Source: Aeromicrobium sp. Leaf350 (lineage in GTDB: Bacteria > Actinomycetota > Actinomycetes > Propionibacteriales > Nocardioidaceae). From it: a DNA stretch of 64,000 nt. Below the pieces are notes generated by a model. It did no database searches, was not told the origin of the DNA, and saw nothing but the letters and a program-made list of their open reading frames with translations. The translations under genes were made by a program, and so were the position numbers. Positions within the stretch are counted from its first letter, which is position 1, and each line of letters opens with the position of its first letter. The stretch is taken from contig NZ_CAKASL010000001.1 of the NCBI RefSeq assembly GCF_916858655.1, positions 1,426,001 through 1,490,000 of the forward strand. The letters run 5' to 3'. Of this stretch, positions 22,322 through 41,307 are shown one piece after another.

Positions 22322-22690
22322 TCAGCTGGAGCGCAGGGCCGACTCGAGGTCCGGGTGGATGTCGAAGACGTCCTCCATGCCCGTGATCGTCAGCACCCGC
22401 TTCACGACGGAGTTGGCGCCGGCGACCCGGAACGAGCCGGCGTCGCGCACGACCTTCCAGGCTCCGACCAGCGCGGCCAGGCCTGAGGAGTCCATGAAGT
22501 CGACGCGGGTCATGTCGACCACGACGTCCTCGTTGCCCGAGGGCAGGCCCTCGAGCAGGTCGGTGCGCAGACGCCTCGACGTCTCCAGGTCGATGTCCCC
22601 GACGAGACCGAACACGACGCGACCGTCGCGCTCCTCCCGCGAGACGGTGAGGGGAGCCCGACTCGTGTCGTCGGCGGGTGGTGCACTCAT
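22322..22690 (-). CDS. STAS-domain anti-sigma-factor antagonist (RsbV/SpoIIAA-like)
   Basis: The 122-residue product is a single STAS domain. The phosphoacceptor motif is DFMDSSGLAALVGAW, with the target serine in DSSGL around residue 69. In partner-switching systems the unphosphorylated protein binds an anti-sigma kinase and frees the sigma factor, and a PP2C phosphatase removes the phosphate. Its ATG overlaps the stop of the phytochrome-phosphatase gene (ATGA), so sensor/phosphatase and substrate are probably made together. No kinase or sigma gene is adjacent. Confidence 0.9.
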   Translation of the reverse strand: MSAPPADDTSRAPLTVSREERDGRVVFGLVGDIDLETSRRLRTDLLEGLPSGNEDVVVDMTRVDFMDSSGLAALVGAWKVVRDAGSFRVAGANSVVKRVLTITGMEDVFDIHPDLESALRSS

Positions 22691-24996
22691 GAGCGGTCCT
22701 TCGGGTCGGGCGGTGTGTTGACGGAGGGTGCAGGAACAGAGGTGCGGCGCAGGGCAACGACGGTCAGGTCGTCGTCCATCGTGCCCGGAACGGCCTCGAG
22801 GAGTCCATCCACCCAGTCGACGAGTGGTCGGTCACGATGAACCTCGGCAGCACTGGTGCGCAGCTGGTCGACGGACTCGTCCAGGACGACGCCCCGACGT
22901 TCGACCAGGCCGTCGGTGAACAGGAGCAGCACCTCGCCCGGCGCCAGCACCAGCCGGTCGGTGCGGGCGTTGCCGAGGGCTGCCCCGAGGAGCGGACGAC
23001 CGGTCGTGGGCTGCTGCTCGACCGCGCCGGGGCGAACCACGAGAGCTGCCGGGTGACCGGCATTCGCCAGCTCGACCGCGCCCGAGGCCAGGTCGACGAC
23101 CCCCATCAGCACGGTGGCGGTGCGGCCCGGGAGCACGTCCGCGACGAAGTGGTCGAGCCGGTCCAGCGTGGCCGCCGGCGAGTAGCCGTCGATGGCGTAC
23201 GCGCGCAGGGCCGTGCGGATCTGGGCCATCGCGGTCGCCGCCTCCACGCCGTGGCCGGCGACGTCGCCCACCACGAGGCACACGCGTCCGCCCGGGAGGT
23301 CGAAGACGTCCCACCAGTCGCCACCCAGCTGGATGTCGGCCGCGGGCCGGTACCGCGCCAGGAGGTCGAAGCCCGGCAGCTCGGGCGCCTCGTCCGGCAC
23401 GATGGCCCGTTGCAGCGACTCCGCCACGGCCATGTGCTCGCGAGAACGACGCACGAGCTCGTGCGAGACGGTGCTGCGCAGGCGGTTCGCGACCTCGAGC
23501 TGCCACGGCTCCCACGGCTGGCTGTGGTCACGGACGACCTCACGCCACCGGTCGAACGACTTGCGCGGGCTGAGTCGCACGTCAGGCCCCTCGGCAGCGG
23601 CGAGCTCCTTGTTGCGCGGGTCACCGCCCCAGTCGACGACGTGCAGCTGGGCCGGGCGCACCCACATCATCCAGCGGTCGGCGCTGTTGCTGATGACGAG
23701 CGCACCGGCTGCGGTGTCGGAGACCGTGGCGAGCGTCGGGTCGAGCTCGGCCAGGTGGTTCGAGGCCGTGGCCGAGCCGTCGTCGGAGCGCAGCAGCGCG
23801 GCGATGCGGTGCAGGTCCTCCGGCGCAGGCACGACCCCCGCGGTCAGCAGGCGGTCGTTGACCCACACGGCGGCACCTCCGGCACCCACCAGGTCGAGCG
23901 TCGCGGGGTCGGCCATCATCACGTCGTGCACCGGGCTGCTGTCGGCGCCGAGGCGGGTGACCAGGGCCGAGAGCTCGGTCGTGGCCAGCAGCTCGTCGAT
24001 CCGGCTGTCGGCCCGCTGGCGGTCCTCGATCAGCTGCGACCCGGTCTGGCCGAGGAACTCGGTGGCGCTGCGCACGTCGAAGGAGACGTGGTGCGGACCC
24101 GAGTAGTGGTGGCACGCCACGAGGCCCCAGAGGCGTCCCTCGGAGATCATCGAGACCGACATCGACGCCGTGACGCCCATGTTGGTCAGGTACTCGACGT
24201 GGATCGGCGAGACGCTGCGCAGCGTCGAGTGCGACAGGTCGAGCGGTTCGCCCGTCGACGGGTCGAGCACGGGGTCGAGCGGCACCGGGGTGTAGCCGAT
24301 GTCGGCGATCAGCCGTGTCCAGTTGACGGTGTAGAGGCGGCGCGCCTGCGCCGGGATGTCGGTCGAGGGGTAGTGCAGGCCGAGGAACGAGTTGAGGTCG
24401 GGCCGCCGGTCCTCGGCGACCACCTCACCGTTCCAGAGCTCGTCGAAGCGGTACACCATGACGCGGTCGAAGCCCGTCAGCGTGCGGATCTCGGTGGCCA
24501 GCTGGTCGCACAGCTCGGTGACGGACCGGGCCTGCGCGAGGCGGCCCACCGCGGTGCGGGCGGTGCGGTACGACACGACCTGGCCCGCTCCGCCGACGGG
24601 CTCCAGCTCCACCACGATGCGGTCGCCCGAGTGGTGCACCACGACGTCGACGGCCGATCGCCCGAGCAGGCCACCCCCGGGCACCCGCACGCGACGGGCG
24701 ACGAAGAGGTCGTCGTCGGCGATGGCCTGGCGCACCGCGGCGGCGGCCTCGCGTCCGATCACGTCGTGCAGCTGCTGGCCACGCACCTCGTCGACGGTCC
24801 GGCCCAGCATCTCCGGCGCGTTCGCCGAGACGACCTCGACCCGCTCCGCGACGTCGGCGGCGAGCAGCAGACCGTGCGGCTGGATCGCGCCAGGCACGTG
24901 GATCGGCTCGCGGTCACACGTGCTGAGACTTGGTGTCTCGTACGCCGGCGTGTGTTCCGACAGGGGGAGGCTCACAGGGTCCCTTCGAGTCTTCAT
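22687..24996 (-). CDS. Bacteriophytochrome with C-terminal SpoIIE/PP2C phosphatase
   Basis: The 769-residue product reads PAS (about 20-135), GAF (150-325), PHY (345-510), SpoIIE-type PP2C phosphatase (525-755). The biliverdin-attachment Cys27 precedes REPIHVPGAIQPHG. The chromophore-pocket Asp213 (HYPSTDIP), His266 (IHVEYLTNMGV) and His296 (ACHHY) are present, and the PHY tongue has PRKSFDRW. Metal-binding acidic residues of the phosphatase are Asp560 (GGDWWD), Asp578 (VGDVAGHG) and the DDDLTVV segment near 741. It should switch between red and far-red states and control dephosphorylation of the STAS protein encoded just downstream. Start uncertain: an in-frame GTG at 24975 has a better ribosome site (AAGGGA). 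Confidence 0.92.
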   Translation of the reverse strand: MKTRRDPVSLPLSEHTPAYETPSLSTCDREPIHVPGAIQPHGLLLAADVAERVEVVSANAPEMLGRTVDEVRGQQLHDVIGREAAAAVRQAIADDDLFVARRVRVPGGGLLGRSAVDVVVHHSGDRIVVELEPVGGAGQVVSYRTARTAVGRLAQARSVTELCDQLATEIRTLTGFDRVMVYRFDELWNGEVVAEDRRPDLNSFLGLHYPSTDIPAQARRLYTVNWTRLIADIGYTPVPLDPVLDPSTGEPLDLSHSTLRSVSPIHVEYLTNMGVTASMSVSMISEGRLWGLVACHHYSGPHHVSFDVRSATEFLGQTGSQLIEDRQRADSRIDELLATTELSALVTRLGADSSPVHDVMMADPATLDLVGAGGAAVWVNDRLLTAGVVPAPEDLHRIAALLRSDDGSATASNHLAELDPTLATVSDTAAGALVISNSADRWMMWVRPAQLHVVDWGGDPRNKELAAAEGPDVRLSPRKSFDRWREVVRDHSQPWEPWQLEVANRLRSTVSHELVRRSREHMAVAESLQRAIVPDEAPELPGFDLLARYRPAADIQLGGDWWDVFDLPGGRVCLVVGDVAGHGVEAATAMAQIRTALRAYAIDGYSPAATLDRLDHFVADVLPGRTATVLMGVVDLASGAVELANAGHPAALVVRPGAVEQQPTTGRPLLGAALGNARTDRLVLAPGEVLLLFTDGLVERRGVVLDESVDQLRTSAAEVHRDRPLVDWVDGLLEAVPGTMDDDLTVVALRRTSVPAPSVNTPPDPKDRS

Positions 24997-34885: not shown

Positions 34886-35377
34886 ATGCCGCTGCGCCGC
34901 AAGAAGAAGACCGTGCGCGACCAGATCGAGAACACCTACGAGGACCTCCGCGCCCAGGTCGCGAAGAACGCCCCGATCCTGCGTGACCAGGTCGTCGACC
35001 AGGTCACCACCAAGGCTCCGATCGTCCGCGACCAGGTCAAGTCCAAGCTGCACGAGGGAGCCGACGAGCTCCGCACGCGCCTGCCCGAGCTGCACGCCTC
35101 GCTGTACGAGCGTCTGCCGGACGACGTCACGGACCGCCTGCCGGAGGGCGCCAAGCCCAAGAAGAAGAAGTCGAAGCTCAAGAAGGTCGCGGTGGTCGGA
35201 CTGATCGCTGCCGCCGGCGGCTTCGCGTACTCCAAGCTCAAGGGCAGCTCGTCCGCCCCGGCCTACACGCCGCCGCCCTCGGGTGCCGGCGCGGACGTCA
35301 CCCGGCCCGGCCCGACGGCCGTCCCGGACGAGGTCGACAAGCTCGCCGACGGCGCTGCACCCGACGCCGTGAAGTGA
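34886..35377 (+). CDS. Hypothetical protein with repeated helical segment and one membrane helix
   Basis: The 163-residue product has a basic N-terminus, amphipathic helices with two similar segments (NAPILRDQVVDQV and KAPIVRDQVKSKL), a Lys-rich patch (PKKKKSKLKK, about 91-100), one membrane helix (about 102-118, VAVVGLIAAAGGFAYSKL) and a Pro-rich tail. The overall pattern is that of YtxH-like or ElaB-like membrane-associated proteins. GGAGG lies 4 nt before the ATG. It is followed by a very strong bidirectional hairpin. Function unknown. Confidence 0.65.
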   Translation: MPLRRKKKTVRDQIENTYEDLRAQVAKNAPILRDQVVDQVTTKAPIVRDQVKSKLHEGADELRTRLPELHASLYERLPDDVTDRLPEGAKPKKKKSKLKKVAVVGLIAAAGGFAYSKLKGSSSAPAYTPPPSGAGADVTRPGPTAVPDEVDKLADGAAPDAVK

Positions 35378-40617: not shown

Positions 40618-41307
40618 GTGCCCGACTCGTCCTTCTTCGCCGAGATGGCCCTGGAGCTTCATGCCGAAGCCACCATGGCCGACACCTTGGCGCGCATCGT
40701 CGAGTTCGCCCAGCAGGCCCTCGCATGCGACCAGGCCGGCATCCTGCTGGTGCACAGTCGCACCCGCCTGGAGACGATGCTGGCCACGAACGACGCGGTC
40801 GAGCGGTCGCACGAGCTGCAGCGCAAGCTCGACGAGGGGCCGTGCCTGGACGCGATCGAGGGCGAGCCCGTCTACGTGTCCGGCGACGTCGAGGCCGACC
40901 CGCGCTGGCAGCGGTGGGGCTCGGAGGTCGCGCCGCTCGGGCTGCGCAGCGTCATCAGCGTGCGCCTGGCGAGCCAGAACCGTCGTTACGGATCACTGAA
41001 CCTGTACTCGCACCGCACGCACGCGTGGGAGGACGGCGACGTCGAGGTCGCCCAGGTCTTCGCGCGGCACGCGTCGGTCGCCGTCGCCACCTCGCACCAG
41101 GAGGACGGGCTCAAGGTCGCCGCCGACACCCGCAACCTGATCGGGCAGGCGCAGGGCATCATCATGGAGCGCTTCGAGATCGACGCCGACCGGGCCTTCG
41201 CGGTGCTCAGTCGGGTCTCCCAGCAGCGCAACATCAAGCTGCGTGCCCTCGCCGAGGACCTCGTGCGCAACCGCGCCGACTCCGAGCTCTTCAAGCTCCC
41301 CGGCTGA
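40618..41307 (+). CDS. GAF-ANTAR RNA-binding regulator
   Basis: The 229-residue product has a GAF sensor domain (about 15-155; EGPCLDAIEGEPVYVSGDVEADPRW) and a C-terminal ANTAR domain (165-225): NLIGQAQGIIMERFEIDADRAFAVLSRVSQQRNIKLRALAEDLV. ANTAR domains bind paired RNA hexaloops and prevent termination. AGGAGG lies upstream of the GTG at 40618. No target hairpin pair is obvious beside it. It is divergent from the oxidoreductase gene and convergent with the helicase gene over a family B repeat. Confidence 0.92.
   Translation: MPDSSFFAEMALELHAEATMADTLARIVEFAQQALACDQAGILLVHSRTRLETMLATNDAVERSHELQRKLDEGPCLDAIEGEPVYVSGDVEADPRWQRWGSEVAPLGLRSVISVRLASQNRRYGSLNLYSHRTHAWEDGDVEVAQVFARHASVAVATSHQEDGLKVAADTRNLIGQAQGIIMERFEIDADRAFAVLSRVSQQRNIKLRALAEDLVRNRADSELFKLPG

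Follow-up and report, generated by a model that had tools for sequence, protein, structure and literature searches.

Can red or far-red light set the phosphorylation of a sigma-factor control protein without the involvement of a histidine kinase? This question is raised by two overlapping genes in a 64,000-nucleotide stretch of DNA (the window; C1:1426001-1490000) from an essentially complete actinobacterial genome of 3.5 Mb. One gene encodes a bacteriophytochrome fused to a SpoIIE/PPM phosphatase, and the other encodes a small STAS protein. Both reading frames were recovered as the first-pass annotation had described them, and they have an ATGA in common (Table 1).

Table 1. Coordinates within the window of the fusion gene, the STAS gene and their features.
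Feature	Position	Strand	Details
Bacteriophytochrome-SpoIIE/PPM phosphatase fusion gene	22687..24996	-	769 aa from ATG 24996; alternative GTG 24975 gives 762 aa
PAS_2 domain with chromophore-binding Cys27	24595..24918	-	Pfam, aa 27-134, 3.7e-21
GAF domain with Tyr182, Asp213-Ile-Pro, His266 and His296	24034..24519	-	Pfam, aa 160-321, 4.8e-16
PHY domain with PRKSF tongue motif (aa 477-481)	23446..23970	-	Pfam, aa 343-517, 1.7e-41
Continuous linker helix from PHY into the phosphatase (aa 497-532)	23401..23508	-	AlphaFold2 model; length constant in the family
SpoIIE/PPM phosphatase domain with Asp578, Asp695 and Asp742/743	22744..23295	-	Pfam, aa 568-751, 3.4e-42
STAS anti-anti-sigma-type protein with DSSGL motif	22322..22690	-	122 aa; Pfam STAS 9.2e-19
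ATGA, common to phosphatase stop and STAS start	22687..22690	-	Sequence; exact -4 overlap in 11/11 adjacent genus pairs
Ser68 codon, predicted phosphosite	22487..22489	-	Alignment to SpoIIAA

The sensor half has the features by which a bacteriophytochrome is recognized: PAS_2, GAF and PHY domains in this order, an N-terminal cysteine, the DIP motif, the pocket histidines and a PRxSF tongue. Its nearest solved relatives, found by sequence alignment of residues 21-521, are bacteriophytochromes (E up to 1e-109), and Cys27, Asp213, His266, His296 and the PRKSF motif, all at the positions already given in the first-pass annotation, line up with their counterparts in these structures. The match to the NCBIfam equivalog BphP (NF041576) reaches 386 bits, against a curated cut-off of 1040; it stops at residue 523, and the output of the window protein is SpoIIE. 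The alignment of fusion homologues comprises 78 sequences, which share 40-79% identity with the window protein in the aligned set. Tyr182, Asp213, His266 and His296 are invariant in all of them, the tongue reads PRxSF throughout, and Cys27 is present in 73 of the 73 homologues whose called N-terminus extends that far. Judged from the nucleotide sequence, translation may begin at the GTG at 24975 (residue 8), as a GAAGGGA ribosome-binding site is better spaced there than at the ATG at 24996, in which case the chromophore cysteine would be Cys20 of the shorter protein.

The phosphatase half belongs to PF07228 (145 bits, cut-off 25) and starts at about residue 540, ahead of the Pfam range, so that Asp560 lies just before that range. 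The metal-binding motifs reported earlier in the same chain are indeed there: the acidic residues Asp560, Asp578, Asp695, Asp742 and Asp743 are invariant in the 78 homologues. The nearest solved relative by sequence comparison is Rv1364c (2e-31), followed by the phosphatase of a two-component regulator (3ES2/3EQ2). This half was compared by sequence, as the structure-search list was filled by matches to the sensor; the photosensory part of the AlphaFold2 model aligned in that search with DrBphP at a Z of about 40. The model, built from a 60-sequence alignment, has a mean pLDDT of 88.4 and joins the two halves through a single helix. The spacing from the tryptophan region of PHY to the GGDW motif is 64 residues in 74 of the 78 homologues and 63 in the other four, where the absent residue falls in a loop just ahead of GGDW. 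Common descent may partly account for this constancy. A comparable constraint on linker length has been described for the PadC phytochromes (PMC9587094), and for PPM stress phosphatases switching via dimeric helical linkers has been proposed (PMC12143880). By analogy with both, the linker of the fusion could transmit a signal in the same manner.

The smaller gene encodes a protein of the kind to which RsbV and SpoIIAA belong, with a STAS domain that carries a predicted phosphorylatable serine in a DS(S/T)GL motif. It scores above the TIGR00377 (anti-anti-sigma) cut-off (73.7 against 53.45 bits), its nearest structures are those of SpoIIAA/RsbV, and Ser68 aligns with the phosphorylated serine of SpoIIAA. 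The start codon overlaps the phosphatase stop codon, as first described, by four nucleotides, and is preceded by a ribosome-binding-like GAAGGA within the phosphatase gene.

These features suggest a sequence of events. Biliverdin from the heme oxygenase of the cell would bind Cys27 of the PAS-GAF-PHY sensor, and red/far-red photoconversion would refold the PHY tongue. This change would pass along one continuous, presumably dimeric, helix into the PPM phosphatase, whose activity would switch as in RsbU/RsbP-type phosphatases, one of the two light states presumably being the active one. The phosphatase would then dephosphorylate Ser68 of the STAS protein translated with it, and this protein would compete for a small kinase/anti-sigma factor of the RsbW type; the likeliest one is RsbW1, which is genus-wide. 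As a result, transcription would change, most likely by release of a sigma factor of the SigB/F/G type. We consider it probable that the two genes form such a light-input module, running from phytochrome phosphatase through STAS and an RsbW-type kinase to transcription. The domains, the catalytic and chromophore residues, the overlap, the exclusive co-occurrence in the genus and the RsbW clusters of other lineages are legible in the sequences, and they support a partner-switching module in which light acts on a STAS protein; its photoactivity, its dimerisation, the activity of its phosphatase, which light state is active, the substrate, the kinase and the sigma factor are inferred. As far as the STAS protein, the interpretation is well supported.

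Beyond the STAS protein, candidates have to be sought elsewhere in the genome. Its inventory comprises seven SpoIIE-type open frames, two STAS proteins, two small RsbW-like proteins and two SigB/F/G-like sigma factors, the last below the curated cut-off of their model and with confirmed sigma-70 regions. Of the cognate kinase and sigma factor that the first-pass annotation proposed to look for, the likeliest candidate for the kinase is RsbW1 (C1:1634214), judged from sequence and gene content. Homologues of this protein are encoded in 48 of the 49 genus genomes, and it retains Glu47 and Asn51, aligned with the N-box of SpoIIAB, and one genus member (G018) carries the fusion, the STAS gene and one strong RsbW1 match. 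These points favour RsbW1, as does the placement of RsbW2 (C1:306101), which lies divergently beside another PPM gene, itself weak evidence against RsbW2. For the sigma factor, the sigma tree singles out no cognate. A SigB/F/G-like sigma gene lies three to six genes from the fusion, beside LigD, in seven genus members, and was rejected as the cognate because both sigma factors of the window genome fall outside its clade and the same sigma is also found in fusion-less genomes. LigD-type sequence also lies near the sigma factor C1:449088 of the window genome (L033).

The first alternative concerns this last step. The module could be light-driven and act on its co-encoded STAS protein while that protein governs something besides a sigma factor; some STAS/HATPase pairs of actinobacteria may do likewise. 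No sigma factor gene adjoins the fusion in the window genome, nor does an RsbW gene, which also counts against the proposed module, and neither of the two sigma factors of the genome is linked; in addition, the sigma gene near the fusion in relatives persists where the fusion is missing. Such an output is nevertheless unlikely, given that the protein falls in the anti-anti-sigma superfamily with SpoIIAA/RsbV as its closest structures.

The distribution of the two genes bears on whether the fusion acts on the STAS protein encoded next to it. Across the family, 78 of 341 genomes (from 7 of 26 genera) carry a full-length fusion; within the genus the count is 19 of 49, with the gene in two pieces in one of them (G032). 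A sample of 396 genomes of the phylum contained the fusion in two besides the window's own. Among the matches listed in a plasmid search with the fusion, one record covers at least 80% of the query and is a histidine kinase, and the others cover the sensor part. Orthologues of the STAS protein (E <1e-26), a threshold that sets them apart from the nearly universal core STAS in the 49 genus genomes, occur in 14 of them, 12 with a fusion and two (G036 and G038) with a relict of it. The association has a Fisher p of 3.4e-5 for full fusions and 1.7e-7 with relicts counted, values that ignore shared descent. The STAS gene adjoins the fusion or relict in 13 of the 14 genomes and is on a separate contig in the fragmented G033.

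In both genomes with a relict, the STAS gene is intact and the relict lies immediately before it, on the upstream side. In G038 (L237:8252-8799), pieces of the N-terminus, the PHY tongue and the phosphatase C-terminus are left, and in G036 (L238:7667-8125), pieces of the N-terminus and the phosphatase C-terminus. They represent internal deletions: the sensor-phosphatase is the first to decay, and the STAS gene is retained.

Seven of the 19 fusion-bearing genus members have no STAS orthologue, and over all lineages neither STAS nor RsbW is encoded within three genes of the fusion at 48 of 79 loci (either one is at the other 31). Therefore, this STAS protein cannot be the only target in the family. 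A second alternative follows this line: the true substrate would be the core STAS protein (C1:997233), present in nearly all genomes, or some other protein, and the co-encoded STAS an accessory or competitor. We regard this as distinctly improbable: in the genus, the orthologue of the co-encoded STAS is found only with a fusion or its relict, and it overlaps the fusion by exactly four nucleotides in all 11 adjacent pairs. The core gene (L035:7219-7560) lies between topoisomerase-I-like and helicase-like genes, an arrangement reminiscent of BldG in Streptomyces.

In other lineages RsbW-type kinase genes are found near the fusion. Fusion, STAS and RsbW genes follow one another in one direction in five g18 genomes (L109, L110, L112, L113 and L115). 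At six further loci (L144, L151, L154, L157, L158 and L159), STAS and RsbW lie just upstream of the fusion, with a heme oxygenase close by in five of the six, and at a locus from another class of the phylum (L165), STAS and RsbW are two and three genes away, respectively. These RsbW-type genes point to a partner-switching context for the fusion. By our estimate, with two STAS genes among about 3,400 in a genome, a STAS gene would rarely adjoin the fusion by chance.

In g18 genomes, the STAS proteins encoded next to the fusion (L109:5422-5739, L113:5308-5568, L154:3844-4152 and others) read MPSLAVG or FPSLAVG in place of MDSSGLG; the phospho-serine position is retained, and the preceding Asp and the following SG are gone. 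This suggests a diverged STAS/RsbW pair in these genomes. Other neighbours vary. Several genus members, and another genus, carry Ku/LigD-type genes of non-homologous end joining close to the fusion (L092:14776-17316, L093-L099, L161, L163:9891-10871), and in several genus members a second, divergent PPM-phosphatase gene adjoins the fusion or is one gene off (L093:11574-12293, L094:12062-12793, L095, L097). Homologues of genes that neighbour the fusion in relatives are found in the window at 34901-35359 (cluster c9) and 40618-41274 (c7), 10-16 kb away. A motif scan of the neighbour genes found no photolyase.

The first-pass annotation had made its reading depend on a heme oxygenase, and the genome encodes one. 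That the phytochrome part is no longer a light sensor, and serves in redox, temperature or bilin-supply sensing or as a dimerisation scaffold, is very improbable: this heme oxygenase is unlinked to the fusion and sits beside ABC-transporter-type genes, but the chromophore residues and PRxSF are invariant in 78 sequences and a heme oxygenase lies near the fusion in nine other genomes. No further PHY-domain gene was found in the genome, so that this phytochrome, its only one, has no kinase output. The proposal that light acts on STAS phosphorylation without a histidine kinase is partly supported, by the intact sites, the continuous helix, the heme oxygenase, the sole PHY gene and the restriction of the STAS orthologue in the genus to genomes with fusion or relict.

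Parts of this arrangement are known from other systems. One is RsbP-RsbQ/RsbU of Bacillus subtilis, likewise PPM phosphatases with an N-terminal sensor and a helical linker that dephosphorylate an RsbV-type STAS protein (PMC12143880), and red light is reported to activate SigB through RsbP/Q (PMC3019169). In contrast, the sensor of the fusion is a complete phytochrome of the bilin-binding type, no RsbQ/RsbT-type partner was seen, and the STAS protein is co-encoded while the kinase is unlinked. Rv1364c of Mycobacterium tuberculosis likewise takes part in partner switching as a PAS-PPM sensor phosphatase, but its single chain also contains the RsbW-type and STAS domains, and its sensor is PAS rather than a phytochrome. 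PadC proteins, which are phytochrome-activated diguanylate cyclases, share PAS-GAF-PHY, a constrained coiled-coil linker and a non-kinase output, here a phosphatase and there GGDEF (PMC9587094). The YtvA/Lmo0799 LOV-STAS stressosome likewise brings light to bear on a stress sigma factor by way of STAS proteins; there the light is blue and the receptor is itself a stressosome STAS protein, whereas the receptor of the fusion is a phosphatase.

Bacteriophytochromes with the domain order seen here, PAS-GAF-PHY-SpoIIE/PPM, already count as one of the recognised effector classes (PMC9587094, Fig. 2). In the part of that source consulted, the entries are database listings without a described STAS partner or function, whereas the window fusion has a STAS partner. 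A literature search with most subscription journals outside its scope turned up no study of how a phytochrome-PPM protein functions. Since the architecture is already in databases, what is new is the dedicated STAS cassette together with its context of partner switching, and the system is a variant of the RsbU/RsbP kind, well suited to experiment but not a new category.

With receptor and phosphatase in one chain and an evident STAS partner, direct red-light input to partner switching can be tested in vitro, and nature offers in the fusion a candidate light-switched protein phosphatase. A general rule that has been proposed, by which a dimeric helical linker controls PPM stress phosphatases (PMC12143880), could be tested on it as well. 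For the organisms themselves, we see an even chance that a phytochrome phosphatase with its own STAS protein forms a dedicated red/far-red cassette that feeds an older core switch of RsbW and sigma factor and whose two genes are acquired and lost together, which would place a stress-type sigma factor of non-photosynthetic actinobacteria under kinase-free control by light.
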